A stretch of 64,000 bases of DNA from Morinoia aosen (taxonomy: Eukaryota; Arthropoda; Malacostraca; Amphipoda; Talitridae). Below are positions 30,570 through 52,814 of the stretch, in pieces (the first letter of the stretch is position 1; the number at the start of each line of letters is the position of its first letter). Made by a program: the position numbers and the translations under genes. Under the pieces are notes generated by a model. The model was not told the origin of the DNA. It saw nothing but the letters and a program-made list of their open reading frames with translations, and did no database searches. The DNA lies in NCBI GenBank assembly GCA_030386875.1, contig CM059567.1, positions 52,684,020 through 52,748,019 of the forward strand. The letters are read 5' to 3'.

Positions 30570-31582
30570 TGTAAGGATTGTTGTATGGCCGTGGGTATAG
30601 CCAGTTCCTTAACAACTCTCGATAAGCATTTGGAGTAAACCATGAGAAAGGATAATGATTGACGTGGAAACTCAGCTTTTTCTTTGTGGTTTATTGAAGG
30701 AGCCGGAAAGGACCACCGAGTCTTGAGCAAACTGAAGAACTTGGCTGAAGATGGTTTGCAGTCCGGGCAGGCAGAAAGCTCCTGGAGAAGTGCTGAAGTC
30801 GACAGTGTGGGTGTTGTTTGAGAGTGGTCTTAACCCAATTAATAAGTCCTTTGAGGGACCCGAGATGATTGGGAGTGTCAATTTAATATGAGTTGATGCC
30901 AGGCAAGTAAGGCCAGTTTAGGTAAGGCCAGTTTAGGTAAGGCCAGTTTAGGTAAGGCCAGTTTAGGTAAGGCCAGTTTAGGTAAGGCCAGTTTAGGTAA
31001 GGCCAGTTTAGGTAAGGCCAGTTTAGGTAAGGCCAGTTTAGGTAAGGCCAGTTTAGGTAAGGCCAGTTTAGGTAAGGCCAGTTTTGGTAAGGCCAGTTTA
31101 GGTAAGGCCAGTTTAGGTAAGGCCAGTTTAGGTAAGGCCAGTTTAGGTAAGGCCAGTTTAGGATCAATAACTAATCCAACAAAGGCAATCCCATTAAAGT
31201 AAAGGCCCAAAACAAGGACCAAAACTAATCCAAGTAGAAGTCCCAAAAGCGACCCAGGGAGACTGTGTGTGTGGTGTGTGGCGATGACGTTGAGGTCGAG
31301 AATTTTGCTGTAACACCGCTAGAGTAAGACGCCAATGTAAGAGTGCGCTTTTGAAAAGAGACGCGCAACTGCGCAGTATTGCCACCAGGGGGCTCCTCTC
31401 TCGAAAAATGTCGAATGTTATTTTATTGTCTAATGCTTTTACACAAAAACTTCAATGATTACGAATTAGAAGTAGAAAATAATTAATAATAAATTAGAGT
31501 AAGATTTTTAATGCTAATAATTAATTTATTTAAGTGCGAATGGGAAAATTTATAATTCTTACGCTTTGTAGCGATTGCTACA
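30570..31582 (-). repeat. 5' LTR of the Gypsy element
   Basis: This uninterrupted 1013-bp LTR starts TGTAGCAATCGCTACA in element orientation and contains 17 units of the 15-bp minisatellite. It serves as the empty-site reference that fixes the exact borders of the Harbinger and Penelope-like insertions in the other LTR. Confidence 0.92.
30907..31161. repeat. 15-bp minisatellite, 17 units, inside the LTR
   Basis: Same unit as at 5459-5788 with one T variant near 31084. The five-unit difference from the other LTR shows slippage after insertion, since the two LTRs are copied from one template at integration. Confidence 0.95.
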
Positions 31583-31996
31583 TATTTTAGACACTAAGGG
31601 GATTTAAAGAATATGTCGTTCACTATTTTCTCGAAAAAAAATACATTTATTCATAATATTTATATAATTATTTCACAATGAACCTTGGCAATTTATATAC
31701 GTAAAAAATTAATAGATTTATTTTTCCAGCTGATAAACAGTTGTTATAACATATTCTCTAATTCACAGCTGCAAAATATAAGAGGAAATGTTGAGGGCCG
31801 ACAGCGTAGGAGCTTTAATTCGTAACGGCCTACAATTCTATCGGAAATACAATATTCACGCAAGAATTCAGCACTTGTGAACCAGATTTGTTCAATAAAC
31901 TACTCAGAATCCACCAATCTTTGTCACAAACTACTATTACACGGCATTACTGGGATGACCAGTACGTCAAAACCCGCCCTCAGGAAAGGTGGGTCA
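31583..31996. other. AT-rich spacer, nothing recognised
   Basis: It contains the right TATT target duplication of the Gypsy element at its start. No reading frame or repeat was recognised. A short segment (GTTGAGGGCCGACAGCGTAGG) is GC-richer than its surroundings but unassigned. Confidence 0.5.
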
Positions 31997-33640
31997 TGTA
32001 GCAGTCGCTATATAATATCTAAATTCAGTAAATTTCTCATTAACATTTAAATAACATAATTATTGGCATTAAAAATCTTACTTTAAATTATTATTAATAA
32101 TTTCTACTTATAACTATTTCTCTTAAAAGTTTTTGTGTAAAAGCACAAAAAGAGAATAATATCGACAGTCGTTCGAGTTTAAGCTCGTCGTGTGGGCAAC
32201 ATCGAAACGCACGCCATTTTCTTAGCGTCATTTTCTTGTGTGATCTCGTGTGGGCAGTTCGTCACGTAAGAGGAAATAAAGTGTTTTAATTCAGTTAGAG
32301 ATTTTCTTAGAGTATTACATGCTTCATGTTAGCTCTTAAGAGTATTTTTACCAGTACTGCTATTAATTTCAAGGTGCTCAGTAATAGCTTTCTTAGATAT
32401 ATTTCTTACGTATTGTTTAGCATTTCTAAGCTGTTCTTTAGTTAATGGCGTAGTCGTGATAGGTGTATTTTACCGTGCTGCCAACATTTCTTAGCTTAAT
32501 AGATCGTAATTATGGCGTAGGTGTGATTGCTGTGTTTCAGTATTTCCATTTACATTCCGCACCCTTGCCAGTGTGCAGTGTTTGATAATCCATTCCTATT
32601 CAGCACACCTGTGCAGTATTCAATATTTACATATATAGTCAGCACGCTGACAGTGTAGTGCTGCCTGTAGGTTTCGTAAATAGTTGATTTTGGTGCCAGA
32701 AACATTAGTGTAACGTCACACGGGCATATTATAGAATTACCGGGATTCATATTGATGATCGTGTGTTTTAAATTATTATCGCCCGATCGCGTATAGAAAT
32801 CATGTAGTTTTCATGACATGTTTAATAAATTACGATTGTGTACACCATTAAATTCTTGTTTGTGTCAGGCTTATATTTGAAATCGAGAGCATAGAGAAAG
32901 TTATATTGCTAGCATGTTTAAATCTGTCCTTATTCTTCATGAGCTTAAAAAAGAGGAATAACAAGCGCGATGATAAATTTGTAGGAAAGAACTCAGGGTT
33001 TCTCCGCGATGGGAATTTACGCTACTAGGGAAACAGCTGTTGTGGGTTTTCTTGGTGTGTCTTTCCGGAATACTGTCATTCAGCGTCCTCGAATATTCCA
33101 GATTCTCCGACGTCACAACACACCACAAACATCCATCCCTGGGCTTGAGCTTCGCCTTTATCTTTGCCTTTAGCTGGATCTTTACCTGGACCTTTAGCTT
33201 GGTTTTTTAGCTCTGCCGTTAACTTGCCTTTAGCCGAGTACGTAAGTCTTGTACTTTAGCCTTGTACTTTGGCTTTGCATATTACCTAATTATTGGCCTA
33301 ATTGTACACTGCCCCAATTACGGGCATAAAAGTAATCAGCCGCCATTGGCTAAATCCAGCGGGCCTTGATCTTTAATCACTAACTGATTAAGATCGATTA
33401 TCGTCATTACATGAATAACGACGCACCGATTGTAATGCTTGTTTTAAATTTGCCCTCATTAAATCGAATAACCTGAACACGATTCACTTAAACCTCGTCA
33501 ACCGGCCGGAGCTACCGCCTCAGGACTGCGAAGATCTTCAGTCAAGATCTTCAGGATCAAGTCTCGGTGATCCTCCTGGCTCCTTCAATAAAGCTCTAAC
33601 AAAAAGTTGAGTCCCACCTGTGTCGTCATTGTCCTCTTTC
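31997..33640 (+). repeat. LTR of the second Gypsy family, opposite orientation
   Basis: It begins TGTAGCAGTCGCTATA and is collinear with the complement of 3621-4940 through about 33370. It continues beyond to an AATAAA near 33588 and probably ends within the next 60 bp, but I could not fix the end or a target duplication. No internal coding region is attached, so it is probably a solo LTR. Confidence 0.6.
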
Positions 33641-33719
33641 ATGTAATTTGAAAACCTATCTCGAGAATTTATGTTATGAAAATTGGTATCAACGCAAAAG
33701 TCAAACCATACCAACCAAA

Positions 33720-34090
33720 CATAAAAGTCACTTCAACTCACTTCACATGACCACCTCATTACAGTCACTGTCCCTAACTTTATGCAAGTAGAAAAAATGT
33801 TCATACTATCAATAATACTCAAATTACACTTCTGATCCAATCCAGTAAGACAGCTCGTACCACAATCATCTTCAGCCATCTGGTATACCACTCATTCTCT
33901 CCATATTGTTTAAATACCACATTCATGAAAATTACCCTCTCATGCTCATATTTACTCCAGCACAAAAGGATTACTTGTTTCCTTCATTCCCTCACCACAC
34001 TGGCGATATAATCTATTATTATTTTCATTCCACCTGTAAATGCATTTTTTCACACTCAACGCCTTACACCTCACAGCAGACAAGAATTGG
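33720..34090 (+). repeat. Left arm of a diverged long inverted repeat
   Basis: About 370 bp matches the complement of 35185-36240 once the foldback element is removed. Shared blocks include CCACATTCATGAAAATTWCC and CACACTCAACGC. It contains the single-copy TCTATTAT that is duplicated around the foldback insertion in the other arm, so it preserves the empty site. Confidence 0.7.
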
Positions 34091-35184
34091 CTTCTAAAGC
34101 TACTATCAAAGAACATCTCACACTTTGGCATATTCTTTCATATTTACCTGATTAATGTAGGTTTTTGCGTCGTGCTAAGCCTCCACTTGTTCAATCTAAA
34201 CTCTCTTGTTTGCTTCTCAATCTCTTTTTTCCGCCTCTCGCATTCCCACTCTGGTCCTTCTCCTCCAACATTCATTGAAGTCAGTCGTTCACAAGTCTCC
34301 AAATTCTTACAGGGGTAATTTTTTGTATACTTAGTTTCTCTGATTCCATCAATTATTTATCTCATTTTATCAAAATTTTTCCAATTTTGTTTCCCCCAGG
34401 AATGAAATAGTTCCGTTCTTCCAAAGAATAGTAATTGTTGTCGAGTCGTCCCGCCGCTGTTCAAATTATGTTTACCTGCTTTTAGAACGATGTCGAAGAA
34501 TATGATGACAAAAATGCATATAAATTAAATATGCTGCAGAATTTATTTTGCTCGTCAACGGTTGGTGTTAGTAAAGAATTTTAAGAGCAGCTCCAGTTGT
34601 AACTTCAAAGTAAGTTCTGTTGCAACGGGACATTTTAAATCTAAGTTAAGGTGTAAATACCAAATGTGCACTTGCAACACAGTTCACAGTGAGTTGCGAT
34701 CAATAAATGTTTCTATGCATTTTTCAAGCGTATGTTTATTGTGAATAATAAAAATGTTCGTTTTCAAGTAAACATTGATAGTTGATAGTTAGGGTATTGT
34801 TCAAAACAAATGTATCAAAACATGTTATTGTAGAAATTGCTATGTGGCTTATAAAACCTAACCATTAAATAGATCATGAGAAAAAGTTTTGATATCGAAA
34901 AAACAATTTGCAGTGTATTTGTATTAAATTTATATTTGAGAGCATTTAGAGACCTTACTTAAAAAGTTGAGACATTTATGGGAAAGTGCAGGTTCTAAGC
35001 TTCAGAAATAAGCTGCATTGCTGATTCATCTACCATGCCTATTAAAGTAGCATTGACTACTTAAAATTTTTGCTGACCTTTCTCAAATTTTGGATATTTT
35101 GGAGTAAAGGATGAGTCTTATTTTACTTATATCTCACATGACTGATTTCTGAAATTGCAGTGACCTTTGCATCACTGCTATGCT
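34091..35184. other. AT-rich DNA, no gene recognised
   Basis: No convincing coding sequence was found. A consensus-like splice donor (CAAA|GTAAGT) at 34610 could belong to a non-coding first exon of the CENP-T-like gene downstream, whose first coding exon seems to be preceded by an acceptor at 37774. This is only a possibility. Confidence 0.3.
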
Positions 35185-36240
35185 TCCTATGTGGTGTAAG
35201 CGTTGAGTGTGAATAGATGTGCATGGAGAGGCAATGAGGGTAATAATAGAGGTCAATATTGAATATAATGTTGTCAACGAATTTCATAATTTCGTAGGTA
35301 TAGATGGGTAATATAGTCGATTATAAGACGTTTTACAAGAATGACATTCTGCCCGGCGATGCGTTATTTTCGAATTATTCAACTTTGAAGCTGGCTTGTG
35401 CGCGCCATGGAAGCACGCGGGGCTAGCGTAATTTAATTAATAACGGAAGCTAACCCCCTATTACAAACGTAAAGAGGTTGGATCGTGAGGGGTAGGCACA
35501 GTTCTTTTAGTGAAAATTATAAATGAAGGTTTCGAGTGACGTTTGTTTACATCGACGCCAAGGTGGCTGCCGCCATGGCGCCCAACCGGCTGAAGATGGC
35601 GGCAGCCATTTTCGAGTCGATATAAACAAACGTCACTAGAAAGCTTTATTTATAATTTTTACTAAAAGAACTGTTGCTACCCCTCACGACCTAACCTCTT
35701 TACGTTTGTAATAGGGGTTAGCTTCCATTTTCATTGCTAAAACAATGACTGTTTTTGCGTTAAAAGGGCCATTCAGGAGCGCCGTTCATTTAACTTCAAA
35801 CTTAAATAACTCAAAAACCAAGCATTTCCGAGCACATTGTCATTCGTGTAAAACGTCTTAGAAACGACTATATTACCCATCTATACCTACAAAATTATGA
35901 AATTCGTTGACAACATTGTATTCAAAATTGACCATAATAGATTATGTCAGCAATATGAAAAAAAAGAGGAGAAAACAATAGAACAATTTTTGCTGGAATG
36001 TAGTAGGCTATATATGAGCAAGAGAGGGAAATTTTCATGAATGTGGTATTTTAGCAGTATAGAGAATGAGTTTATACCAGATATGGTGAAGATGATTGTG
36101 CTTTGAGCTGTGTTGCTGGATTGGATGAGGAATGTAATATGAGTATTATTGGTACTATAGAAATTTTTCTTGTATGTGCCTGGAGTAAGAGACAGTGACT
36201 GGAATGAGTTGGTCATGTAGAATGGGTTGTAGTGTCCCAC
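35185..36240 (-). repeat. Right arm of the inverted repeat, containing the foldback element
   Basis: This arm consists of 35185-35250 and 35942-36240, interrupted by the foldback element. Identity to the left arm is around 70 percent by eye. The origin is unknown; it may be a dead transposon with long inverted ends. Confidence 0.65.
35251..35933. mobile_element. Foldback element copy 2 with perfect 8-bp target duplication
   Basis: This 683-bp sequence has long inverted arms starting GGTCAATATTGAATATAATG, with only the central third and one arm segment unpaired. ATAATAGA occurs directly on both sides (35243-35250 and 35934-35941). It is homologous to 11490-12160 with the same GATGGCGGC-type centre. 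It has no coding capacity. Confidence 0.88.
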
Positions 36241-37773
36241 CATGTGGATGGTTTTTTGATGTACTGGTTACCCAGTAATACTGTCCAATGGTAGTTTGTG
36301 ACAAGAATTTGTGGATCCTTATTAGTTTATTTGACAAGTGTAGTGCATAGGCACTGATTTCTTGTCAAAATTGTGAGAATTGCCGAGGGAATTATAGGCC
36401 ATTACACTGTTGGCTTTCACCTTCAAGTTCAAGTTGTAGCCTTCTAGTTCAAAATTAGAGACCAACTGTTCAGGAAATTGAAGTTCATTTCTAAAGTTCA
36501 ATTAAATTACTTCTAAATGTATGACATATTGTCTGCAATTCAGCAGTTAGATTGGTACAGAAGATGTTTTTGATGTGTAGATAATATTACTTCTAAAAAT
36601 ATGCAATTTAGCAGTTAGATTGTTAGAAAAGATGTTTTTGATGTGTAGATAATACTGGTAATTATTTTCATTATATTGTTCTGTTAATAATGTTTGTTTT
36701 ATTTTATTTCTATGATGCTACTTGAGTTCATGCTTTTTTATTATCTTTTTTAGTTTTTGTCTTAACTTATAAAATAAATTTTTATTTACATAGTAAGCCC
36801 TCCTTATATGGTGATGTTCACAGTTATGTTTTTTAGTAACTACTGCCATTGATTTCAATTATGGTAAAAAAAATTCACAAGTACAATACCCGCTCCTTTT
36901 TTATTCACACTGTACCATAGCACCACTACGCAAGGCCACCGCAACAATTAATCTTTTCCTGCACTTCCCTCTGTACACAATTAAATCTTGAATTTCAATA
37001 CAGTTTTTGTTCACTCTGCATAGTCCTTTTAATTTTTTAAATGATTATTTTCATGTTTGTATGGGTGACTTTCATGATGGAACACCTCCCCAATTATTAC
37101 ATGCTACAATGGGTTTGGTATAAAGTAATTTTGATTTTTGGTAGGGTGTCCAGGAACACACGTGTACTGTATAATTAGAACTTATTGTCTTATCTTTTTG
37201 CACTATTGAATCTGTTATGTATTTTGACCATCTGATGGATATCTGAAGTTAGAGTAGATTGGGTTAGGCCAAGTTGACTTTGATTTTAACACTTTGACTG
37301 CGACTTGCTCCATCGCTGGGACACGGAGGTAATTTTAACCGATCAGTAGTCACAAATTTGATTTTCATAAATACTTAATAAAAGCTAAATGAGGGCATGA
37401 TCTAGTTCATGTTTGGTATTTTCAAAATAGTTTAACTACAATTGACTTTAAATTTGAGTTTGGTATTCAACTTAATATTTACTAGTTGCAGTCAAAGTGT
37501 TCTAACTTTTGTGTTTTGCTGAGCATGCCCCTGTAGGAGCATGCCCCCTTCATAAACCAGTATAAAATTATTAGTTTAAATTGCAGAGTATTTCAAATGT
37601 TATCTTTAAATTGTGAGAAACAAATTGTTTTGAACAAATAATTTAATCTTTATGATTTTTTATTGTCATTATATGATAAGAACTTATATGATATGTGAAG
37701 TATACCTTCTAAAAGTGTGTGCAGAGTTGTGGAAAGATTTTTTGATTCATTTGAATGAAACCTATTTGTTCCA
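36241..37773. other. AT-rich upstream region of the CENP-T-like gene
   Basis: It contains a short local duplication near 36500-36660 (two copies around GATGTTTTTGATGTGTAGATAA). No open frame of note was found. A polypyrimidine-AG (CTATTTGTTCCAG) at 37762-37774 looks like a splice acceptor 11 bp before the start codon, implying an upstream non-coding exon. Confidence 0.4.
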
Positions 37774-37785: not shown

Positions 37786-37915
37786 ATGGATGATAGCATG
37801 AGCTCTACTCCTCGCAAGGTGCTCAAAGGCTTCATGGCCGAGGCCTCTCCTCACAACACTCCTGCTGCTTTCAAGAAGGACTGCCAGCCTGGAACTAGGA
37901 GATCTGTTGCTCGTG
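37786..37915 (+). CDS. CENP-T-like kinetochore protein, first coding exon
   Basis: The exon starts ATGGATGATAGC and encodes 43 codons plus one base. It includes SSTPRKVLKGFM at residues 6-17, which aligns with the STPRTLL-type motif at the very N-terminus of vertebrate CENP-T. It also has several S/T-P sites (TP at 8-9, SP at 21-22, TP at 25-26) and a basic GTRRSVAR end. The donor G|GTGTGT at 37916 is in phase with the acceptor CAG at 41791: the split codon becomes GAA and the joined frame of 5124 nt is a multiple of three. CENP-T N-termini recruit the Ndc80 complex after CDK phosphorylation. The donor is weaker than consensus, so an extra small exon cannot be excluded. Confidence 0.75.
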
Positions 37916-39639
37916 GTGTGTTGACTGCCGCTTTGTTTTGCCAGACGAAGAATGTATTTCTGCAGTAATGTTGTTGAGGGTGGTGTTGAATTGTGGGTGA
38001 ATGTAGCCATACAATTTGATCACTAATCATTTTAATGGTTTGGATAAATTTGTTGGAACAGTACAGTACTTTCTATTTTCTACTATTATTACATTCATCA
38101 GTAGAAAATATATTTTTTGCTGGTAGATGTGCTTACTATTTCAGGAAGAATGACTTTGGAGATTTTTTAGTGCTGCTATAGCGTGAGGTCTACCACATTA
38201 TAGCATAAGGTCTACCTCTAACTAGTAATATAGTGTGAGGTCAAGTTACTAATGGATATTACTTATTTCCATACATTTAATTTAGCAATAAACACTTAAT
38301 TGTACATCTCAAACTTCACCTGGGCTAGCGATATATGGAGGTAGATCTCACAGTATAGTAGCAAAAATTTTTTTTACTTTAGTAGTGACTTGGATGATGC
38401 CTGATGTTCATTCTAGATGTTTAGGTTTAATTTCAAACGGAGAGAAAGTGTTCATAAACATTCTTTTTGAAAAGATGTGAGTTTGTGTTTGCATTAGAGA
38501 AACAGTAGTTGCGCACAATATGGAAGGAGGTTTGTGTGTATGTCAGTATAAATCTGAGGCTGCAACAAATGCCTGACTGGCATGAGCTCTTACTTTTGTG
38601 TTCAAGTATTATAGTTTTCAAAAGTTTTGCTTGTGTTTTCAGGTTTACATGAATGGTCAGGTTGTATTTGAGATCTATAGTTCCTACTATTTGCTAGGTT
38701 CATTTTGCATAAAATCCTTTAAGTAAGAAAACTACATTTCTACTGAATTGTTTTAAGCGTAAATTTTTGTTTAGATAATGGTATACCTTCAAGATAAAAT
38801 ACATCAGGACGAGTGAGTGTGATGTGTAAGTTCAAGTCTTCATAGCTTTGGATTAATCAGTGAATGTGCACAATAGTGCCTAATTGTAAAATTTCACTTT
38901 TTCTGTTCAAAGGAGACCAAATGTTAATGATATGAGGTGCTTGGTTCAGTAAAACTCATTATTTGTAACCTCACAAATTGGACATGCTTTTCAGATCATG
39001 TATGGATGTTTATGTGTTAAATTATATTATATGTGAGTGAGTGATATTCATGTTACTGCTGAGTGATGCTCAAACAAGAGATCAAGTGCTAAAACCGAAT
39101 GAGGCTAAGTCCAGTAGAAGCTTCAGACCTCAATTGGAGCTGCTTTTAGTAATTAATGGCCTGCAGGTGTGCCAGTCTAAGCCAGGGTTGGCACATAAAA
39201 AACCCACCCAAAAAAACCCTCCCAAAAAAACCCACCCAAAAAAGCCCAAAAAAACCCACACTAAAAAAACCACTAAATAGTAGGTTTTCTTGGTTTTTTT
39301 TTTTTTTGGGTTTTATTATTGTTATGTAAATTTTATTTGTTTTCAAGCTTATAGAATAAAAATGCGCTAAATATTTATCTTGTCAAAATAAGTATCTAAG
39401 TCATGTGCATGACTAAGACAAGAAAACATTGAAAAACAAAACAGCAACCCTATACAAATCAAATGAGAAAAACCTTAATCACAAAAAAACTCAAGAGACT
39501 AATATATTTTCATAAATTCCATTTCCAAAGTTAAAAACAAAATTTTAGGAACAAATGCAGTTTGACTACTTAATATAGAGACTTCTGAATTTTCCCTGTC
39601 TTCTAGACTAGACTGCTACTACAATACTACTGTGTTTCT

Positions 39640-40080
39640 CTTTCTACATCCACTGCCATTTCATCGTTGTCATCCACATCATGATCATTTGTGAGGTGGC
39701 GATATACTGAGACCAATTTCTGTGCGCGTTCTGATCCTAATCTATTTCTCAATTTATTCTACACAATTTCAAATGTTGAGAAAATTCTCTCAATGGATCC
39801 TGAACTTGCAGGGCAAGAATGAAGATTGCTTATAAACTTGAAGAAACCCTCTGCCAGTGTTTTTTCATGAATCTGCATTTTCTGCTGTTTCATGTCTTGA
39901 ATATCTCACCATCAACGAGGAGTCATTGTCTTAATGATTTTCTCATTGAACATGTGTTTTGGGAAGATGTTGGAGTCCTTCAATTTATAGGAAAAAGCGC
40001 ACCGATGAACTCCGGATTGTACTCAGCCAACCACTCTTCAATATCAGTCTCCTGTGAGAGCTTTGCCTTAAATGTTGTAA
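39640..40080 (-). pseudogene. hAT transposase C-terminal fragment
   Basis: Minus-strand translation gives DIEEWLAEYNPEFIGALFP and later KTLAEGFFKFISNL. It then gives SSGSIERIFSTFEIV, a stop, and NKLRNRLGSERAQKLVSVYR. The last is the hAT C-terminal dimerisation domain with its S-IERIFST motif. Several stops make it a pseudogene. The N-terminal zinc finger and catalytic core were not found. Confidence 0.75.
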
Positions 40081-40312
40081 AATGAATCATGAATATCGAG
40101 TTCATTATCTTGTTGATCAGTCTAATGTGAAACTAGGCTAAGTGAATTAGGTTAAACATTATTGTAAACCCTAGAATTATGTAATGGTAGGATGCCCTAG
40201 AAGTCGCTGAACTTATTCGGGCCCACAAATATTTGACCATTGTATTAGACTTAAACATTCTACCTCTGTATCACCTGTGGTAAATAAATTGTTTCAATTG
40301 GAATAACCATAG

Positions 40313-40404
40313 GTCGTTTCTTTACTTTCTCACCCCTTGATGGCTGCGGTCGTGTCTTGCCCCACGACCGCAGCCATCAAGGGGTGAGAAAGTAAAGAAA
40401 CGAC
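40313..40404. repeat. Perfect 42-bp-arm hairpin
   Basis: Arms 40313-40354 and 40363-40404 are exact inverted copies separated by 8 bp (TCTTGCCC). Outside them ACCATAGG and CCTATGGT continue the pairing after a two-base bulge. It lies inside the hAT element in an otherwise unassigned stretch that has an AATAAA at 40282. Confidence 0.93.
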
Positions 40405-41791
40405 TGGCCTATGGTGAGCATTCAAGCTGCACTGGAACAAATTTGACAATGGAATCTGTTAGAGCATTTACTTCCAATCATTTTAGTGTTTTTTGCTATC
40501 CTGTACTGCAAAAAGTGATTTTTTTGGCAAATTTAGAAAAAAAATTTGGCATGTCACTACATGTTGTAACATGTATCAGTGTGGTTGACTGACGTGACAT
40601 GCGCTGCTAAGCACTCCAGCTCACACAATACATATGTTAAGTTGTTAACAGCATGACTAAGTGATGTGCAGCTGTCTTGCTTCAAGTTGCTTGTGGTGGT
40701 TACTTATGATCTGCATGGTGCTTCCCTATCACATGACTTGCGCCTGTCTGCTGCTAAAACAACTTACTATGAATTGACGAGCATACGAGCATAGCAATTC
40801 TCTTTGCACATCTTATATCTTTACAGACTGCAGAGCTATGTCTCTATGCATATGGTAATTGGTAAATGGTAATTGTAATGAACAAACTTAATTCATATAT
40901 TGTTCATATAATGTAATAATTCATATAATAATGTAATATAATGTTGGAAATAAAGTAATCAAATAACAATATTTACTCAATAAGTGTATATATACAAATC
41001 TGAAATAGGGGCAACGGGAGTTGTGTTAATAACTCTTTTAAACAAAAACGAGTATTACAAAAAACCAATAAAGCCCCCAAAAAAACAATAAAACCCAATA
41101 AAACCCATAAAACCCAATTTAACCCCAAAAAACCCAGGTGGGTTGGGTTTTTTTTAAAAAACCCAGGGTTTTTCCATCCCTGGTCTAAGCATCCGTGATC
41201 TAACACACCCACTTGTAGTAGGTCACATCTGTTGTAGGTCAATTGCTAAAATGAATGTTATCTATGGATTTCTTTCTAATTCTGCATCCAAATGATAACT
41301 CACTATTAACATGAGCCTTGGGGTTATATTACTTGGTGTCATGTAAGAAATTCCATCCAAGACTTGCATGGTATCAATGAAAATATATGATGAAATTTTG
41401 TGTAAGTAAACACAAATTTAGCTCAAGCAGAGTGTGTGTGTTTGGAAATGTTGGAAATGTCATAAATAGTTGGTGTGAATTATTTTGAATGAAGTAGTAA
41501 CGTTTGTTATGGTTACCCCGCATTCAGAGTAATTTTGGTATAAACTTTGGAGGAAGTCCTATGATATAACGCATGAGTTTGTACTACACTTTTTATGAGT
41601 GACATTTTCTATTTCCTTTGCGCGTACAATCTCAGTGGTTGATTTTAAGCTGGCAACCCAATAACAATTGGTTTCCAAACTTAGGTTCAATATTGGTGTA
41701 AAAATGATCTTGTGGGATGTTGTTTTTAGTTTCCATGATTTGTAACTTACTTGTATTGTTGTATGCTTACATGCCTGTGTTGTTTTTTCAG

Positions 41792-44700
41792 AACTTGATG
41801 CCCCTGAAGATCTGCGTAAGAAAGTGCTAAAACGGCGCTCCATAAATGCAAAAAAAGGTGAAACAGCAGATGTTTCTCTGAAAAAAGCCGACCAAAGCTT
41901 AGGACAGAACCTCACGTATGCAAATGTTTCTCAGATTTCCTCAGCATCAGATGAAAGTATTACACATGAAAAAGAAAAGTTGCGAATAAAACGCAAACGT
42001 CAGGGTATTTCCTCCAGCCAACCTCGTCCTTCAGAAAGCACACAGAAGAATATTTCTCTCGCTAACTTCACCTATGCAGAAGTTTCTGATGACGACTCAT
42101 CTTTGGGGGACACTTTATTGGCCGAGAGAGAAAAGGTAGCCAAGCGGAAGAGGGGAGGTAGAATTATATCATCTTCTCAGCCAATGGGGGGTGTCCGCAA
42201 AGCCTCCTTGCCTGCAAAAGAATCAAACGTCACGCTACCTGTGGACTACACTTATGCGGGCGTTGACACCATGGAATCCTCCGCTGAAGTCATAAACATA
42301 GACGACATCAAGAAGCGGCGAAGACAGTACACAAGATCGGGTAAACAGAACACAACGCGATTGGCTAGAGCCGAATTTGACAATGACAACCAAACAAAAA
42401 TGATCAATGAAAGCACCAAAGGGGAAATAGAAGGGACCTATGACTTTGATGACTCCAATAAAAGTTCTTCTGATGAAAGCATTGACCTAAATGCCGTTAG
42501 GCAACGGAAGAAGAAATTCAAAGCAAGTTCTGCGAAAGCAAGAACAGGTGACATGCTCGCCACTGGTTCAGGTACAGACCCACTGCGCCTGTCTTCTGGC
42601 TCATCTGCTTCGTCAGGTCCTGGTGGTTATGTGACGGCATCACCTCATGCTTCTCCAGCTGCATCACCTCGTCGTGCATCACTAGCTGCATCACCTCGTC
42701 GTGCATCACTAGCTGCATCACCTCATGCTTCTCCAGCTGCATCACTTCGTCGTGCATCACTAGCTGCATCACCTCGTCGTGCTTCTCCAGGTGAATCACC
42801 TCGTAGTGCTTCTCCAGGTGTATCACCTCGTCGTGCTTCTCCAGGTGCGTCACCTCGTCGTGCTTCTCCAGGTGCGTCACCTCGTCGTGCTTCTCCAGGT
42901 GCGTCACCTCGTCGTGCTTCTCCAGGTGCGTCACCTCGTCTTGCTTCTCCAGGTGCGTCACCTCGTCGTGCTTCTCCAGGTGCGTCACCTCGTCGTGCTT
43001 CTCCAGGTGCGTCACCTCGTCGTACTTCTCCAGGTGCGTCACCTCGTCGTGCTTCTCCAGGTGCGTCACCTCGTCGTGCTTCTCCAGGTGCGTCACCTCG
43101 TCGTGCTTCTCCAGGTGCGTCACCTCGTCGTGCTTCTCCAGGTGCGTCACCTCGTCGTGCTTCTCCAGGTGCGTCACCTCGTCGTGCTTCTCCAGGTGCG
43201 TCACTTCGTCGTGCTTCTCCAGGTGCGTCACCTCGTCGTGCTTCTCCAGGTGCATCACCTCGTCGTGCTTCAAAAGCTGCATCACCTCGTCGTGCTTCAA
43301 AAGCTGCATCACCTCGTCGTGCTTCACTAGCTGCATCACCTCGTCGTGCTTCACTAGCTGCATCACCTCGTCGTGCTGCACTAGCTGCATCACCTCGTCG
43401 TGCTGCACTAGCTGCATCACCTCGTCGTGCTTCACTAGCTGCATCACTTCGTCGTGCTTCACCAGGTGCATCACCTCGTCGTGCTTCACCAGGTGCATCA
43501 CCTCGTCGTGCTTCTCCAGCTGCATCACCTCGTCGGGCTTCTCCAGCTGCATCACCTCGTCGTGCTTCTCCAGCTGCATCACCTCGTCGTGCTTCTCCAG
43601 CTGCATCACCTCGTCGTGCTTCTCCAGCTGCATCACCTCGTCGTGCTTCTCCAGCTGCATCACCTCGTCGTGCTTCTCCAGCTGCATCACCTCGTCGTGC
43701 TTCTCCAGCTGCATCACCTCGTCGTGCTTCTCCAGCTGCATCACCTCGTCGTGCTTCTCCAGCTGCATCACCTCGTCGTGCTTCTCCAGCTGCATCACCT
43801 CGTCGTTTAGCTCAAGTGTTGGCCCCAGAGCTCATCTCAAAAAACGATAAGCCTCCATTCTCGCTTGGAAATAATTCATCTCCTTTATCTATTTCTTCTC
43901 GGAAATCTGTTCTGCAAGTACAACCGTCCACTAGCCCTGCGCGCCAAACTTCTGAACTTGAAAGTAGAAATGTTGCTTTGTTGATGAGCGCATCTGGTTC
44001 TGCTGCTGTTTCTACTCGTTCGGCTTCATATATTGATGGTGTTGCTTCACCTAGTAAATCTACTGGGAAAAAATTGTCTAATTTTGAGGATAGCTCAAAC
44101 TTGAGTGTCTCTGATAAACTTGGCAATCCCAAAGATGTCTCCGTTGTTTCGACTCTCTCAGAAAAAAAGTCAGGTTTGGGAAAGAACCTCAGTGTGTCGC
44201 TTGATTTGGATGGGAGTTTAGTGGCTGCGTCTGGTCAAGTTAAGGGTCGAAATCTGGCAAGTTTGCCTCGGAGTAAGACAAATTTAAATATGGCTGCACT
44301 CATACAGAATGCCCTGCATCTAGATACCGAAAATTCTGGTCCGACCACACAACTTGTTTCTGACAACTTACAGATCGAGGAAGGAGACACAAGTTCTGAA
44401 GTTAATTCCGACGAATCTGTTGTTCCTGAGACCCCTGACTCCAATTTAGTAGTTCGTCATGATTCACCGAAAGCGACTACCAGACGCTCATTGTTAAAAG
44501 AGTTTAATGGCAGTAAAGCCCTCGGTGAAATTTTAGGTGAAGCTCCCTCTGTTATCCCTCCCCCTGCTAACTTTGAGGATGATCCCAACGTTTCACGCAG
44601 TAATTTGGACGTTGAGCCAACTTTCGATAGCGAAAGTTCTGTGGCTAAAAGTGTTTCACCCCGTCAAGCTTCTCCCGCCGCGTCGTCGCCCCGTCGCGCT

Positions 44701-46785
44701 TCTCCCTCTGCGTCGTCGCCCCGTCGCGCTTCTCCCTCTGCGTCGTCGCCCCGTCGAGCTTCTCTCGCTGCGTCGTCGCCCCGTCGGGCTTCTCCCTCTG
44801 CGTCGTCGCCCCGTCAAGCTTCTCCCGCTGCGTCGTCGCCCCGTCGCGCTTCTCGCTCTGCGTCGTTGCCCCGTCGAGCTTCTCTCGCTGCGTCGTCGCC
44901 CCGTCGAGCTTCTCTCGCTGCGTCGTCGCCCCATCGAGCTTCTCTCGCTGCGTCGTCGCCCCGTCGAGCTTCTCTCGCTGTGTCGTCGCCCCGTCGAGCT
45001 TCTCTCGCTGCGTCGTCGCCCCGTCGAGCTTCTCTCGCTGCGTCGTCGCCCCGTCGAGCTTCTCTCGCTGCGTCGTCGCCTCGTCGAGCTCCCGCTGCGT
45101 CGTCGCCCCGTCGAGCTTCTCCCGCTGTGTCGTCGCCCCGTCGAGCTTCTCCCGCTGCATCGTCGCCCCGTCGAGCTTCTCCCGCTGCGTCGTCGCCCCG
45201 TCGGGCTTCTCCCGCTGCGTCGTCGCCCCGTCGGGCTTCTCCCGCTGCGTCGTCGCCCCGTCGGGCTTCTCCCGCTGCGTCGTCGCCCCGTCGGGCTTCT
45301 CCCGCTGCGTCGTCGCCCCGTCGGGCTTCTCCCGCTGCGTCGTCGCCCCGTCGGGCTTCTCCCGCTGCGTCGTCGCCCCGTCGGGCTTCTCCCGCTGCGT
45401 CGTCGCCCCGTCGATCTTCTCTCGCTGCGTCGTCGCCCCGTCGATCTTCTCTCGCTGCGTCGTCGCCCCGTCGATCTTCTCTCGCTGCGTCGTCGCCCCG
45501 TCGGGCTTCTCCCTCTGCGTCATCGCCCCGTCGCGCTTCTCCCGCTGCGTCGTCGCCCCGTCGGGCTTCTCCCGCTGCGTCGTCGCCCCGTCGCGCTTCT
45601 CCCGCTGCGTCGTCGCCCCGTCGCGCTTCTCCCGCTGCGTCGTCGCCCCGTCGCGCTTCTCCCGCTCCGTCATCGCCCCGTCGCGCTTCTCCCGCTGCGT
45701 CGTCGCCCCGTCGGGCTTCTCCCGCTGCGTCGTCGCCCCGTCGCGCTTCTCCCGTTGCATCATCGCCCCGTCGGGCTTCTCCCGCTGCATCGTCGCCCCG
45801 TCGCGCTTCTCCCGCTGCATCATCGCTCCGTCGGGCTTCTCCCACTGCGTCGTCGCCCCGTCGAGGGTCTTTAGCTGCAGCTAACAAATCAAGAATGTCA
45901 GTTTTATCTATTAAAAAAGTTCTTGGATCACCTGTTGCTAACAATCAGAAGAATTCATCAGCTAGTACATTGGAAAATTGGGTGAGAACGGTACCCAGTA
46001 CCTCAGGTACTGCGAATAGGTCTTCAGGTCGTCAAGATGATCCAACTCATGTTAGAATTCTTGCTGATGAGTGGCATGAAGACGAAGATGACGTATATGT
46101 AGACGTGGTAGGTCTTGATGATAGTCCAGTAATGAACAAATCGCTTTCTCTTTCCGGCACTAGTTCTCACCGCAAATCTGCGCAAGCTGGAGCGCTTCCT
46201 CAAGGTGATCAATCTGGAACTGCACTTTTGCTTGACAAGTCGTCAAAATCCCTGTCTAACACCGTAAGTCCTGCAAAAGAAAAGCCTTTGAAGCAGATGT
46301 CCATAAAAGGTTTTTTGAAATTCTTGGAGAAGAATGAATATGAGGCTCCTGGCGTAGCTGAGAAAAAACGTGAAGCTGAGGAGGAAGTTAAAAGGATGCT
46401 TAAGAAACCTGACGTGGAGAAGTCTCCTTTGTCAAAAGCCAAAACTCATTTGAGGAAAAAGGTTGTTCATGCATCCAAAAAATCAAAACTTTGGAAAACT
46501 CTTCCGTATGCGTACCACAAAGAAACTTTCAACAATTTCTCAAAACGAGAGTACAGTAAGGCGGTCATCAATGAAGTTGTTCAGGCGTCAGAAGTTTTCT
46601 TTGCTAATCTAATCTCTGATTTGAGCGAAGTTGCAACAGCTCGTGACCACAGTTCTATTCAACCGTCCGACGTTATATACCTCATGAAGAAACAGGGCCT
46701 TATTGAAGATTCAGAACATTCGCTCAATGCTCTTGCGGAGGAGTTTTTGCCTGTTAATGAGTGGCCTCACTTGGATAATAAGTAA
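41792..46785 (+). CDS. CENP-T-like kinetochore protein, large second coding exon
   Basis: This exon encodes residues 44-1707. In CENP-T the N-terminus recruits microtubule-binding Ndc80 and Mis12 complexes, and a C-terminal histone fold pairs with CENP-W at centromeric chromatin. Seen here: four degenerate TYA-acidic-basic modules (TYA/TYD at residues 85, 137, 197, 259). Array A follows at about 327-716 with units like ASPRRASPG, then a non-repetitive Ser-rich linker with TPDSN- and SPKATTRRS-type sites, array B at about 1000-1404 with units like SSPRRASPAA, an acidic segment (DEWHEDEDDVYVDVV), and a histone-fold region from about 1600 to the end. The fold ends SSIQPSDVIYLMKKQGLI, then NALAEEFLPVNEWPHL, which aligns with the vertebrate CENP-T tail (VKPEDLELLMRRQGL and following). 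The protein is three times longer than human CENP-T because of the arrays. Confidence 0.82.
42640..43807 (+). repeat. Coding minisatellite A, 27-bp unit
   Basis: About 43 in-frame units of nine codons, consensus A-S-P-R-R-A-S-P-[GA], run without a stop or frameshift. Codon choice is mainly TCA CCT CGT CGT GCT TCT CCA. Blocks of homogenised variants (PGAS, LAAS, KAAS, PAAS) show local unequal exchange. Each unit holds S-P-R-R and R-R-A-S. Long open frames on the other strand (a repeated HDEVMQLEK) are shadows of this array. Confidence 0.95.
44659..45872 (+). repeat. Coding minisatellite B, 30-bp unit
   Basis: About 40 in-frame units of ten codons, consensus S-S-P-R-R-A-S-[PL]-A-A, use GC-rich codons (TCG TCG CCC CGT CGG/CGC GCT TCT CCC). 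One unit (near 45090) lacks a Ser-Pro stretch, making it two codons shorter but still in frame. It encodes the same SPRRAS core as array A with different synonymous codons. Antisense and out-of-frame open frames over it are shadows. Confidence 0.95.
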
Positions 46786-46924
46786 AATGAAACGTAAATT
46801 TCGTTCTCATTACTCCGTGAAGTTGTGAAGGAAATATTGGCTTCTACTGTTCTTTGTGACCGTTATGACAGTGCTATTCTATGGACTCACAAATTTCATA
46901 TTAAACTTTGATAAATTTCCAGAG

Positions 46925-46930
46925 AATAAA
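46925..46930 (+). terminator. Polyadenylation signal AATAAA
   Basis: A canonical AATAAA lies 140 bp after the CENP-T-like stop codon, followed by a T/G-rich stretch (GGAGTTTTGTTCCTTGGTTTAG). It is probably the 3' end of that transcript. Confidence 0.7.
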
Positions 46931-46959
46931 GTATTTTATAGGAGTTTTGTTCCTTGGTT

Positions 46960-49900
46960 TAGTTATTCTTAGTTTGAACGTACAAGCACGGATTATTACT
47001 TTTGTTTTCTATTTTCAACTGTGGCAGTACAGGATCATTAGCTGACGTAGGCGCTTTTATTTGCTACTGTCATCGCACTCGATAAGATGCCTTATTCTTT
47101 TGTAGCATTTTGAGACCGGCCAACGCAATGGATGCGCAGGCTGCTGTGTGATCAAATTATTAGTTGTAGAAGATGCGATTTATTCGTATTTGGTATAATG
47201 GATGTGTTACTTTAGCGGCCTCGCGTACCAGCTGCTTCGTTCATTTTCATGCTTATGACATGCGATTTTGCCACAGGGTAATGATCTACCCGTAAGCCCT
47301 CATGCTTAGCATTTTTTCAGTGTGTTTTTAATGTTTATTAGTCAAATAAATAGACTCCGACCTATCAACATCGAATCTTTAAACCAATCGTTTAGCAGAC
47401 GATCGTATTTACTACCTAACTTTGGAATTGTGTTTCTTTTTTGTTTTCTACTATTCGTTTTTTATACCGATTCTGCTGCATTGAAATTTGTTCTAATATT
47501 TTATTATATCGTGTAGATATTAGTTCTTTACATTTTGTTCCCTTTTCGTTTACTATTCGGTATTTCATACCGATTTCGCTGCATTGAACTTAGTTCTGAC
47601 TGTTTATTGGACCGTGTAGATATAATTTTTTCCTAGCCTTCCTTTTTGTAGTTAATATTTTTGTCAAGTTCGAGTTGTACTTTTATTTTTTTGTAGCTCT
47701 CGTAATGTTAATCGAGCTGATACAAGAACTTTGGTTCGTGTTTCTGATGGTGTTGCTGTGTGATCAACTGTTGGTTCTCGACACGTTGCAATGGTTTTTT
47801 TTCTGAATGAGGATTGTTTTATCTCAATGTGTTTTAGCGAATACTAATGTGCTTCCTTGAATTTCATCCGTCGTTTGATTAACCTAACTTTGGATTTGGC
47901 ATATTTCCTTATTACGTGTTCTGTAAAATAAGAATCACTACAAACCAGTGGCAGTTTTAAACATTTGCTGACAGTTAAACTTCTGTATTGTAACTTTATA
48001 TAGCCTGGAAACTTTTGAAGTGACCTTCACGGTTACTTGGATGTCTAACGCGCATCAGAGAGCAGTTGAACTCCTCACCTTTGAAGAACGGAGGGATTTT
48101 GACAATGCCTTACATTCACAACCACTCACGGGTACAGTCTTTTTTCAAAAGTCTTTCTCCAGCGTGAAATCAGCGGCATTTTTTTCAACTTTATAATTTT
48201 GAAGTGAAGCTGACTTGCATCACGTACGAATTTCGGTCTCTGCGTGTGAAGAAACTGGCGTACTGCTTTTCTGACTCGGTACACAATATTGTCGCTACTG
48301 TATCATCTACGAGTTTTGAACAGCAATCCATAGAACTTTTCGAGCATCCCCGACGGAACACCGTGTGTTTTATCACTTCTACTCAAGAGAATGGTACTTG
48401 ATAAGAGCCAACCTGATGTGCTGGGTCATGATGTTTAACGCCAAATGACGCTTATTCCGTACTACGGCACTGGTCAAGCCCCCCTACAATTTTACAATTT
48501 CATCTATGAGAATAGGACTGGGTGACGCTCCGAGCTTTAAGCTTGGTGTGCTTTCCTTCCGTTAAAATATAAAAGTTTCTTGCTTTGTTACGCACCGTAT
48601 TTTTCGGTTCACTTATTTTTTCAGCACTTCACGTTCATCTTCAATTTTTATTTCGTTTCATAAGCTTCAATCTTGTTTTTATACGCAGGGTTTGGTGACA
48701 TCTTGTGCATAGATTCCTCATTCCCTTAAATTATATATTAACTCGTTGACTCCGTTGGGTTTAACTGAAGTTCAATGTTCAACTCAAATTGAAGTAGATT
48801 TGAAGGTCAATATTAAAAATAACGAACATTAAATGTATTGTGTCTTTATTCAATTTGCATTGAGTATTTCTCAAAATTGAGTTCGTGACTGCAAGTCGGT
48901 CAACAGAATTACGAAAACCCCCTCAGTGACCACCGGTGGATCGAATCGCAACCAAAGCGTTAAATGGGCATTGTTTCTTACTTTCGAACACTTTTGTCGC
49001 GGTTTGGGAGACTTAGACTAATGCGATCTAATCAAATTAGCATTGATCGGGCGCGTCTTCATAGCGATGTTTATTTTCCATCGATAAATTGTAATAACTC
49101 ACGAATGTACGTATATTATACACTCTTACATAAATGTACATGAAATACGTATACAATGAATTTTTATCCATTTTGTAGCCTCTGCCCTTGGAATAAACTA
49201 CGAACGTATTAACTACATGCTATACATTCAACTGCCACAGCCTTCGCAGCGAAAAAATTGCATGAGAGAAATTTGCTTCTATTGGACTTGAGGCTGCTCA
49301 AATGATAGCTTTTTTTGTACCTAGTATGTGGTACTTTGAAAAAATTGTATTACAAACAGCTATTATCTCATGTTTTTGAAATGCGTAATTTTCAAAATTC
49401 TTATGTTAGTCATCGTCAACGTTTCATGGAAAATGGCTTTAGCTGAAAATTATAATTTAAATTCAAATAATACTGCAATGTTGGTGAAGATTAAACTTAA
49501 TTGTTGAGGTATGGAACGCAATGTCTTGATGCGCACACGGAATTCATTCGCTTCAATTGAACTGTGCAAGAATTAGAATAAATATTCGCATCTGCGAGTG
49601 AAATAAGAATATCCCATGCAATAAAGAGCGTATATGTATTTCACCGCTCACACTCTAGTTCACCAAACACAAAACAGTCGTGTACTGCTACCGCATCAAT
49701 AAAACATGCTGGAAACTCCTTGAGTGACTTTCCACATTATTTTAGTTATTCATAAACAAAAAAATAAAGTTAAAATTTGCTTGATTTATGCAGTACTAGC
49801 TCTCTCGAAGTATTGCTTATCAATTCTTCATTGTATTCTAATAGGCTATCTGGTTAAATACCGTTCAATATAACGACTCGTCAGTACTTCGTAATGCAGA

Positions 49901-51700
49901 TACGACTTTGAGCAATAGCAATGATCTTTAACAAAATGAACGCTTCACAATACTGCAGTGAACTTCTGGTGATAGAAATGCATCTAATATTTATGCTCAA
50001 AAGCTATTTCTTTCTTAATTTTTTCCAACAGAAAGAGTATTTCTAGTTTTGTCCTCTGCAAACCAAGTGCGTAAAGCAAATGTATTTCCAAAATGAAAAG
50101 GCAGTATAACTCATCAAGTGCTATTCTTTTCTCAATTTCCTTTGGCAGATACACATCCAGTATTTCCAGTTTCGTCTTTCGAAAAACGCGTGCAAATCAA
50201 ATACATATCCGAAACAAAATAACAGTATAACGCATCAAGTGAGCGAGAATGTATTGTAAAATCTAAATAACGAACAGACCAAGAACCAAACCATACGGCA
50301 GAAGCGTGCACACTTGCATGCACTGAGAGTTGCGGTCAACGTTAGGTCCAATGGCCGCGATGACACACTTGATTGCTCTGACCTGGACGGGGCTGCGCTG
50401 CTGGCGAGTGCAGTGCAAAGTCTTTTGGAGGTGACATGGCCAGTAAAGCCTCGGACACGCGCCAACTGAGAACGGAATAGTCAAAATATTACGATGTTTT
50501 TTTTTTGCATTTTAGGTTTTAATTTGATCTAAAAGTGCTATCCGGTGAAGCCGTAGTCACGCGTTAGCTGGAAACGGAATAGTCAAAATATTGCGCTGTT
50601 TTTTTACATTCTAGGTTTTAATTTGACCTAAAAATGCGGGTGTGATGTTTGGGTGATCACGATATTTGAGGAATGAAAAGGAGATTTTTCGTTCAGTTAT
50701 GGAACGGGCTAATCATTACTGAGTGTGGTCAGTTCACACCATTCACAGAGTTTCAGGTCGACACACATGCTGCTATTCAGATCCAAAGACACAATATCGT
50801 AGGAAATGTAAAAATTTGAATTTCTTGTTGTGAAAAGATAAAGGTAGAAATAAATTCTTTTCCTACAGTAGCTGAATGTTTTATTTAGTGAAGAAGCACT
50901 TGAAGATCTCTGATTTAAAATCCTTATATCCGATCGCAAAATATGCTGCATATTGATAACCCACATTTTCTTATCGAGCACCAAGTTTACGAAAAAAATG
51001 TGTTTTAATGCTGAGGCTGGTTTATGATGTAAGGAAGTATGCAAAAAATTCATTTTATTGCTTATTTAGCGTTGCACTTATTTAAAGAACAAAAATTGAG
51101 TCTTTACTTTTTACGAAAACCCAGTTAATTAGATTAATCGTAAACGTATATCTCAACTCAAGTAATTATATCTCCTCAGGAAATTGTTCTCTGAAGTCCA
51201 TACATCCAGCAAGGTCTGCTCACACAATTTTCATTCGTGCTGCTTGCATTTCCAAACTTAAAAATTTTATGTTGTATCGAGGTGCCATTCATTATATGGG
51301 AGTAATCCTCGGTTGAGCGCAAATTTGTATAAAGTTAGGATGTGTAAAATTTATCCAAAAGGAAATAAATCTAAAATAATTATAAAATTTATCCGAAAAT
51401 TGAAAAAGTTGTCCAAAATAATTGTAAAATATTTGAAAATTTGTAATACATACTTGTCTACGCATCCTTCAATAGGGCAAACAATCTGGACTTTTTCAGC
51501 GTTCAACTTATTTGTTCCCAAGTATTAATAAAGGGTTTCAGCAATTCCATTCGAAAATGAATTCTTACAGTGCATATAATGATTGTTATGTTGAATATAA
51601 CCCAAGGTAGGAGGTCATCTACATTGTGTGCTGCAGTTTCAACAACTATTTACGTTTTTATTTATTTAGTTTACATTTTTAGGATTATTTAAAAAACAGA
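46960..51700. other. Intergenic region with local duplications
   Basis: No confident gene was found. Local duplications occur at about 47400-47630 (two copies around ACCGATTCTGCTGCATTGAA), 50030-50245 (two ~120-bp copies around CAGTATAACKCATCAAGTG) and 50465-50640 (two ~110-bp copies around ACGGAATAGTCAAAATATT). A small frame at 48041-48196 and another at 48204-48401 are listed separately. The rest is AT-rich. Confidence 0.5.
48041..48401 (+). other. Possible small or decayed coding segment
   Basis: An ATG at 48041 opens 52 codons (MSNAHQRAVELLTFEERRDF near the start). The next frame, 48204-48401, has 65 codons with balanced composition (ITYEFRSLRVKKLAYCFSDS). I recognise no family. They might be pieces of one decayed gene or chance; neither has clear splice signals except a possible GTACAG donor near 48133. 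Confidence 0.15.
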
Positions 51701-51785
51701 ATCGGGTTTTAGGATGATTTTCATCGCTATAATTCGGAGCCGAGCTCTGAATGGCGGAAAACTGGTGTGTAATTCGATGTTTGTA

Positions 51786-51791
51786 TCAGTC
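51786..51791 (+). promoter_or_regulatory. Possible initiator upstream of the signal-peptide exon
   Basis: ATCAGTCAAG at 51785-51794 contains an arthropod-style TCAGT initiator, about 350 bp upstream of the start codon at 52139. It lies in a region that becomes GC-richer than the surroundings. No TATA box was seen. This is weak evidence for a start site. Confidence 0.2.
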
Positions 51792-52138
51792 AAGAGAATG
51801 CTGGAGCAAGAGTCACAGCACGAGAACTCGCGCTTCTGTGCAACACAGAAAGCGCTGTTTTATTAGAACAACCGCATGAGCGGGAGCTCGTCAACCTGCA
51901 AAGTGACTCAGTTGCTTTCCAGACATTGTGATAGGTGGTGTGAGTTGCGGGCTCGAGTTGCGCGTAACCTGGGGAGAGAAAGTAGCCCGGAGTGAGGTGC
52001 TGGTTGCAAAAGTTCTCCGCTCTGTGTTTTGCATTGACTGGTCTCATTGAGGCTATCTCTCCTAGGCTCCAGTGATGACAAACTTACGAGTGTCATAGAT
52101 GCCCGTGTGCCGATTAAGGATATTACTGGATTTAATAC

Positions 52139-52241
52139 ATGAAGATGGGCTGCAGAGTGCGTGACCGTAACGTCTTGTGGCTTCTTCTTGCGGTTAGCCT
52201 CAGTAGTCTTCCGGCTCTCAGATGCAACGAAATTACGGAAG
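52139..52241 (+). CDS. Signal-peptide exon of a putative secreted protein
   Basis: ATG at 52139 starts 34 codons plus one base. A basic n-region (MKMGCRVRDRN) precedes a hydrophobic core, VLWLLLAVSLSSLPAL, and a polar RCNEITE end where cleavage is likely. The exon ends exactly at a consensus donor, G|GTAAGA (52242). Phase 1 matches the acceptor at 61308. Signal-peptide exons followed by long introns are common in secreted and receptor genes. The rest of the gene mostly lies outside the window, so the product is not identified. Confidence 0.5.
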
Positions 52242-52814
52242 GTAAGACTGTAAATCCGGGTTCTTTTTGATGTTTTTTTTAATAATACAGAATGAACAGA
52301 AACCGTGGAATTGAATGTACTATTTGACTGAATCAACTACTTTTGTAACAGTACATTTAAATTCTTTTAATTATGTAATTCTACTGAGCAGCAACGGAAA
52401 ATTTAACTTCCAAGTTCTATTTCCTCATATGCTGACCTCATTTGCGGAGGAGTTTATGATCTTCAAGGAGTATTTAATCTCCTTTAGTTAAGAAAGCTAC
52501 CAAAGATCTTATATGTTTATCATTAAAAGATTTTCATGTTTATGTTATCTGCACTTCAAATCTCAACTTACATCAATGCTGGAGAGTCAGATGGCTTGAG
52601 ACCTACATATAGTAGCAGAGATATATTTTACAGGTTTGTAATACCGTCCCGTTTGATATTTTTTTCGCTATGCGGTAAAATGTGATTGCTGTAAAAATTT
52701 TTCCCGGTCTCGCTCTCTGGCGATATATTTTGCTGCGCTTTTCTTTTGGTGAGGCTCAACTATTGCTTCAGCTGAGCGCCGCGGCTTTCTCTTCTGCGCA
52801 TCGCTGCAGCTGCC

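Follow-up and report, generated by a model that had tools for sequence, protein, structure and literature searches.

We analyzed a window of 64,000 nucleotides from the amphipod crustacean Morinoia aosen (GenBank assembly GCA_030386875.1, contig CM059567.1, positions 52,684,020 to 52,748,019 of the forward strand; positions below are those of the window unless a contig is named) that contains a gene predicted to encode the kinetochore protein CENP-T, with two large tandem arrays of SPRR motifs in its coding sequence. The gene lies on the + strand: a raw open reading frame (ORF) of 1679 codons at 41746-46785 provides most of a two-exon coding sequence, 37786-37915 joined to 41792-46785, that specifies 1707 residues. 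The coding part of exon 1 (37786..37915, +) begins with an ATG at 37786, comprises 43 codons plus 1 base, and encodes the N-terminus MDDSMSSTPRKVLKGFM; the predicted intron (37916..41791, +) is a phase 1, GT...AG intron with donor GTGTGT and acceptor TTTTTTCAG, identical in three genomic copies; and exon 2 (41792..46785, +, including the stop codon), delimited by the ORF and the splice frame, encodes all the rest of CENP-T. The first-pass annotation of this DNA had treated the two exons as belonging together, and their joining is supported because the predicted protein of the amphipod Hyalella azteca runs across the junction: the Hyalella N-terminus, MDDTSLMTPRSALQAYM, aligns with exon 1, and the protein then continues via PDLRKQLLKRRSS, which corresponds to the start of exon 2. 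The junction residues themselves align poorly with Hyalella, and the donor looks weak. The possibility that exon 1 is a chance ORF was rejected, since the Hyalella N-terminus aligns with it. We conclude that the predicted gene structure is established by homology.

The C-terminus, read as CENP-T-type in the first-pass annotation, was identified as such by both a protein-family profile and a structure database. Against Pfam PF15511 (CENP-T_C) it scores 40.9 bits (E 2.5e-10, cut-off 28.1), with the histone fold and the start of the C-terminal extension at 46534..46755 (+); the C-terminal piece alone scores 46.9 bits over profile positions 17-96, and the next family, CENP-S, reaches 16.2 bits, below its own cut-off. 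A search of the PDB with E up to 1 returned seven sequences, none of them a histone: CENP-T holds ranks 1-4 (3vh5, 3b0c, 7qoo, and 28op, with E from 9.3e-6 for the best match, 3vh5, to 1.9e-4), and ranks 5-7 are Ctf18 twice (E 0.022 and 0.082) and a cytochrome P450 (E 0.96). Of the 127 query residues, the CENP-T alignments include 38/39-118/119; they start at the first helix and end at LPVN, and so take in part of the C-terminal extension that follows the histone fold. What tells against the identification comes from a genome-wide PF15511 profile search (1.99 Gb in 29 contigs; 150 places scored, drawn from 339 candidates), in which 147 other places also pass the CENP-T_C cut-off, at about 32-33 bits. 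The two of these that were inspected are both histone H4 by eye, and one of the two scores 33.2 bits; histone H4 passes the cut-off, and the cut-off alone is therefore no proof of CENP-T. However, the histone H4 match is restricted to profile positions 15-79, whereas the present protein spans 17-96 and scores 14 bits more, and the CENP-T identity is therefore kept. Because the histone H4 control also passes, we lowered our confidence by a small step from near certainty, and we conclude from the sequence that the protein is almost certainly a genuine, intact crustacean CENP-T. The weaker CENP-T_C places sit on contigs C4, C22, C23, C26, and C27.

CENP-T is a protein of the inner kinetochore that attaches to the outer kinetochore with its N-terminus and to centromeric DNA with its C-terminal histone fold. 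The histone fold is the DNA anchor of CENP-T, as established for the family (PMC5371998), and insect CENP-T is described as having a monomeric fold without CENP-W (PMC12678787). Profile matches to CENP-W (PF15510) at E up to 0.001 numbered 0 in the genome, in a search that left 14 control genomes blank too and that a split gene would escape. The first-pass annotation had placed the protein in an insect setting and had argued from insects that lack CenH3; the relative found is an amphipod, and that argument does not carry over.

This relative, the predicted Hyalella azteca protein (1023 residues), was the sole homologue found, with 71% identity over the C-terminal query (1 of 60 candidates); as a query it retrieved only itself among 136 candidates, and a shorter query retrieved none among 39, in a search that needs exact shared words and that more distant relatives may escape. 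On this result an insect origin was rejected. The Hyalella protein scores 41.1 bits on CENP-T_C, contains no other Pfam family that we found, and, with the arrays excluded, is identical at 317 of 810 aligned residues. Its public name is muscle-specific NAC alpha, presumably from its Ser/Pro/Ala-rich part. The two proteins share their order of parts. Near the N-terminus of the Morinoia protein is an STPRK sequence, the TPR of which is conserved in Hyalella, and which belongs to a candidate Ndc80-binding motif with a T-P-R site, STPRKVLKGFMA (37804..37839, +). We take this candidate motif to resemble motifs of vertebrate CENP-T; its comparison with the PDB gave no significant match (best E 1.7, an unrelated design). 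At residues 83-293 (41908..42540, +) follow four degenerate repeats of the type TY[AG]xV...SS...KRKR, picked by eye and then aligned with Hyalella, which has four in the same order; at E up to 1, Pfam recognises no family in the repeat region. These repeats, N-terminal of the first array, are possibly further docking motifs.

The two arrays are in frame and together make up 797 of the 1707 residues. Array 1 (42637..43806, +; residues 326-715) is built from the 9-residue unit ASP[AG]ASPRR, and array 2 (44653..45873, +; residues 998-1404) from the 10-residue unit ASPAASSPRR. Tandem Repeats Finder (TRF) detects array 1 at 42648-43806 as 27 bp x 43.0 (95% matches, score 1779) and array 2 at 44659-45865 as 30 bp x 40.3 (93% matches, score 1952), in agreement with the roughly 43 and 40 units first annotated; the scores place both arrays far beyond chance. 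The linker that holds the arrays is presumably disordered. SPRR occurs 73 times in the arrays (37 in array 1 and 36 in array 2) and 0 times in the 910 residues outside them; cyclin-dependent kinase (CDK)-type [ST]Px[RK] sites number 74 in the arrays (37 + 37) and 4 outside; and [RK][RK]x[ST] sites number 74 in the arrays (37 + 37) and 3 outside. The arrays carry a net charge (K/R minus D/E) of +83 and +80, respectively, about +163 together. By sequence, each array is thus both a repeated SP(K/R)(K/R) motif and a repeated CDK consensus, [ST]-P-x-[RK].

In the first-pass annotation each array unit was a dual-kinase site, with a CDK motif overlapping an Aurora B/protein kinase A (PKA) motif. The CDK half of this proposal stands as a consensus match, with the 74 sites in the arrays, but the Aurora B/PKA half mostly does not. 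Aurora B and PKA disfavour proline at +1, and proline occupies +1 in 54 of the 74 RRxS-type array sites; the other 20 include 13 with RRASL, which would be a good PKA-type site. Hyalella points the same way. After its fourth TY[AG]xV repeat, that is, at the position of array 1, the Hyalella protein has a short, degenerate array (residues 323-494) with 5 SPRR and 8 CDK-type [ST]PxR sites and with 0 RRxS-type sites, 7 of which occur elsewhere in the protein. Aurora B/PKA phosphorylation was accordingly rejected as the main reading of the arrays, and, because the Hyalella array has SPRR but no RRxS, SPRR looks like the older element. Array 2 has no counterpart in Hyalella, which has 0 SPRR outside residues 323-494.

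The PF15511 profile search of the genome finds three copies of the gene with long open frames: the window copy (1679 codons; 52.73 Mb on C12, the contig of the window), copy 2 (1665 codons; C12, 54.28 Mb), and copy 3 (1689 codons; C24, 11.94 Mb). The spliced products have 1707, 1693, and 1717 residues, respectively, and the ATG, the donor, and the acceptor are common to all three. Outside the arrays, copy 2 differs from the window copy by 14 synonymous and 7 nonsynonymous substitutions and one codon, a ratio of nonsynonymous to synonymous rates (dN/dS) of 0.149 (Fisher p 2.5e-5; Fisher tests here and below are approximate, with fractional site counts), and selection between these two copies is therefore read as purifying. 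Copy 3 differs from the window copy, outside the arrays, by 0 substitutions and one extra Glu codon, which is present in copy 2 too. The region of copy 2 (C12 54.27-54.30 Mb) aligns with window 33.9-64 kb, starting at about 33.9 kb and running to the last position of the window, interrupted by two gaps, one near 34.9-36.4 kb and one near 39.2-41.2 kb. After masking of the arrays and of the minisatellite at 52.7-53.9 kb, its identity to the window is 90-92% in the 5' flank and intron and 98-99% from 41.2 kb on, a step that could reflect gene conversion. The copy 3 segment, about C12 52.64-52.79 Mb versus C24 11.85-12.00 Mb (~150 kb), is 99.7-100% identical at sampled pairs; beyond it, the best match is 86% at 52.59 Mb (one 4.1-kb piece) and 90% at 52.84 Mb (overlapping pieces). 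Copy 3 may be a recent interchromosomal segmental duplication or an assembly duplicate.

Another explanation is an arms race: with centromere satellites in competition during female meiosis, gene copies and array length would evolve as CENP-T variants of differing DNA affinity suppress or aid drive. The three open copies, whose arrays differ in length, speak for this, and the repeated duplication of CenH3 (PMC9577544) and the minor-groove motifs in kinetochore proteins of other lineages (PMC5095916) fit this explanation as well. Outside the arrays, however, selection between the window copy and copy 2 is purifying, not positive, and the third copy is perhaps an assembly duplicate; we consider an arms race very improbable as the explanation in itself.

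The arrays turn over their units between the copies, with local expansions. Counting short end pieces, array 1 has 44 DNA unit pieces in the window copy, 45 in copy 3, and 47 in copy 2, and array 2 has 42, 42, and 38, respectively; the SPRR totals are 73 (window), 71 (copy 2), and 73 (copy 3), despite the differing unit strings. One explanation sees the arrays as minisatellites that an unstructured linker tolerates, expanded in frame by slippage and unequal exchange, with selection only against frameshifts and stops and with no specific role for their length or motif. The periods of 27 and 30 bp, both multiples of 3, the variation of unit order and array length between copies, the absence of array 2 from Hyalella, and the presence nearby of another long minisatellite (52819-53870; about 25 bp, 42.4 copies), where no gene is recognised, are all in keeping with this explanation. 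Three further results speak for constraint on the peptide instead. First, between the consensus unit of array 1, GCTTCTCCAGCTGCATCACCTCGTCGT, and that of array 2, GCTTCTCCCGCTGCGTCGTCGCCCCGTCGA, there are 5 synonymous changes and no nonsynonymous ones, alongside an additional Ser codon in array 2 (one-sided Fisher p 0.0019). Second, the same SPRR core is found at the corresponding place in Hyalella. Third, the last Arg codon of array 2 has undergone 21 synonymous changes versus 1 nonsynonymous change (37 of 42 window pieces). From the synonymous-only difference of the consensus units we argue that the arrays are translated, and non-coding arrays are, on the same ground, judged unlikely. To judge from these units, array 2 seems to be related to array 1 in altered form and to have been held to the same peptide.

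Scoring within the arrays took only units of fixed pattern (41 of 44 pieces of array 1 and 37 of 42 of array 2 in the window copy, 42 of 47 and 33 of 38 in copy 2, and 42 of 45 and 37 of 42 in copy 3). The ratio pN/pS within the arrays is 0.41-0.74 for these units, only moderately below 1 and so a modest signal. The codons for the core S, P, and first R of array 1 have zero synonymous variation among the scored units of any copy, and recent homogenisation explains this absence as well as selection does. As Hyalella lacks array 2, CENP-T as such can do without it. Taking both sides together, we conclude that the arrays are, with high probability, translated and constrained, and that minisatellites tolerated without a specific role are a rather unlikely explanation of them.

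We propose, as the preferred overall explanation, to which we assign an even chance on analogy with known motifs, that the arrays form a CDK-switchable DNA-binding linker. Motifs of the type SP(K/R)(K/R) bind DNA minor grooves, with a preference for A/T-rich DNA, and phosphorylation of their serine inhibits binding (PMC9903204). Each unphosphorylated SPRR of CENP-T would likewise bind the minor groove of A/T-rich DNA, as SPKK-type histone tails do, and would release the DNA upon phosphorylation of its serine by CDK1. Bound along A/T-rich centromeric DNA, the linker would keep CENP-T at that DNA during interphase. In mitosis, if all 74 CDK-type sites received one phosphate (-2) apiece, the charge of the arrays would fall from about +163 to about +15, and CDK would free and extend the linker and would, at the same time, activate the N-terminal STPRK motif for Ndc80. 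Human CENP-T requires CDK phosphorylation of T11 and T85 for Ndc80 and of S201 for Mis12 (PMC5371998); by this analogy one kinase would serve the linker and the N-terminus of CENP-T alike. That switchable DNA binding is the main job of the arrays we put slightly below an even chance. Charge alone could explain an affinity for DNA, and minor-groove motifs in kinetochore proteins are described as frequently of low conservation and likely dispensable (PMC5095916), both of which count against a specific switch.

The first-pass annotation saw in the same phosphorylation sites a possibly dosage-like or charge-switching design. In a dosage-like model, the many CDK (and basophilic-kinase) phosphosites would recruit outer-kinetochore or regulatory proteins, an arrangement comparable to the MELT array of KNL1. 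The number of full CDK-type sites in the arrays (74) would suit such a role, for which the recruitment of Ndc80 and Mis12 by human CENP-T through three CDK sites and the MELT repeats of KNL1, as a kinetochore array of kinase sites, provide precedents (PMC5371998). The array unit, by eye, has no likeness to the residues C-terminal of TPR in the N-terminal motif, and the proline at +1 in 54 of 74 RRxS-type sites speaks against the basophilic-kinase component. We know of no reader protein for phosphorylated SPRR, and we regard a recruiting array as decidedly unlikely. The switchable DNA-binding linker also has a bolder form, in which a giant CDK-switched DNA clamp with more than 70 SPKK-type motifs per CENP-T copy turns over its units under centromere conflict, so that centromeric satellite DNA is read by CENP-T as well as by CENP-A or CENP-C; we think this form, too, unlikely to be correct. 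The arms race considered above is compatible with the switchable linker, as its evolutionary cause.

One end of CENP-T is bound to DNA and the other to the outer kinetochore, and the way in which the linker between them is regulated is of importance to all kinetochores that employ CENP-T. A natural, SPRR-rich CENP-T allows a test of whether linker charge set by CDK governs centromere binding and outer-kinetochore reach, and the co-existing copies with different array lengths constitute natural variants for tests of linker charge and of centromere drive.

The remainder of the window contains repeats and mobile elements. A 15-bp satellite, GTAAGGCCAGTTTAG, occurs at 5459-5789 (22.1 copies, 100% matches) and at 30907-31162 (17.1 copies, 99% matches). 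At 871-897 is TAACC x 5.4, a sequence that we take to be an arthropod telomere-type unit; the window lies at 52.7 of the 102.8 Mb of the contig. A Pao-type retrotransposon (Peptidase_A17, DUF5641) at 16452-26708, between ends of about 2 kb, is apparently inserted in a Gypsy-type element (RVT_1, RNase H; type assigned by eye), which near copy 2 has no such interruption. No genes beside CENP-T were recognised by eye among 44 ORFs of at least 70 residues, which were not database-searched and which cover 30000-37700 and 46900-64000, less 52600-53900.

Relative to its homologue in Hyalella, which has only 5 SPRR in a degenerate array and no array 2, the Morinoia CENP-T is set apart by the size of its arrays. 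In a literature search whose scope was papers other than subscription papers and preprints, nothing joining CENP-T and amphipods was found; papers that join centromere, kinetochore, and amphipod appeared to be off topic; literature joining CENP-T and SPKK concerned kinetoplastid kinetochores only; and no CENP-T with arrays this large was found. Vertebrate CENP-T has the same C-terminal histone fold, QGL segment, extension, and long linker, and its N-terminal motifs may be similar around TPR, but the CENP-T chain 7qoo_T has 561 residues, as compared with 1707 here, 797 of them in SPRR arrays, in a gene with three genomic copies. Human CENP-T, moreover, relies on three CDK sites to recruit Ndc80 and Mis12 (PMC5371998), as against 74 array CDK-type sites here. 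SPKK-type sperm histones H2B and H1 of sea urchin and hydrozoans likewise carry repeated SP(K/R)(K/R) in a tail on a histone-fold protein, but these histones pack sperm DNA and have up to seven repeats, as in sperm H2B tails (PMC9903204), whereas the present protein is a kinetochore protein with 73 and with DNA binding that is predicted. Minor-groove motifs themselves are not foreign to kinetochores: CENP-A contains SPKK, CENP-C/Mif2 and CENP-U/CENP-Q homologues contain an AT-hook, and in some kinetoplastids KKT2/KKT3 contain both; in CENP-A, CENP-C/Mif2, and KKT2/KKT3 the motifs are, however, short and often poorly conserved, and large tandem arrays are not mentioned in the accessible part of that source (PMC5095916). 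The MELT array of KNL1/Spc105 is alike in design, in that a disordered region of a kinetochore scaffold repeats a motif targeted by a kinase (PMC5371998, PMC9252888), but MELT repeats are Mps1 sites that recruit checkpoint proteins, whereas the SPRR repeats are CDK-type and strongly basic. CENP-T, SPKK motifs, and repeated kinase sites in a kinetochore scaffold (KNL1) are thus already known; what appears to be new is a CENP-T with arrays of this size.

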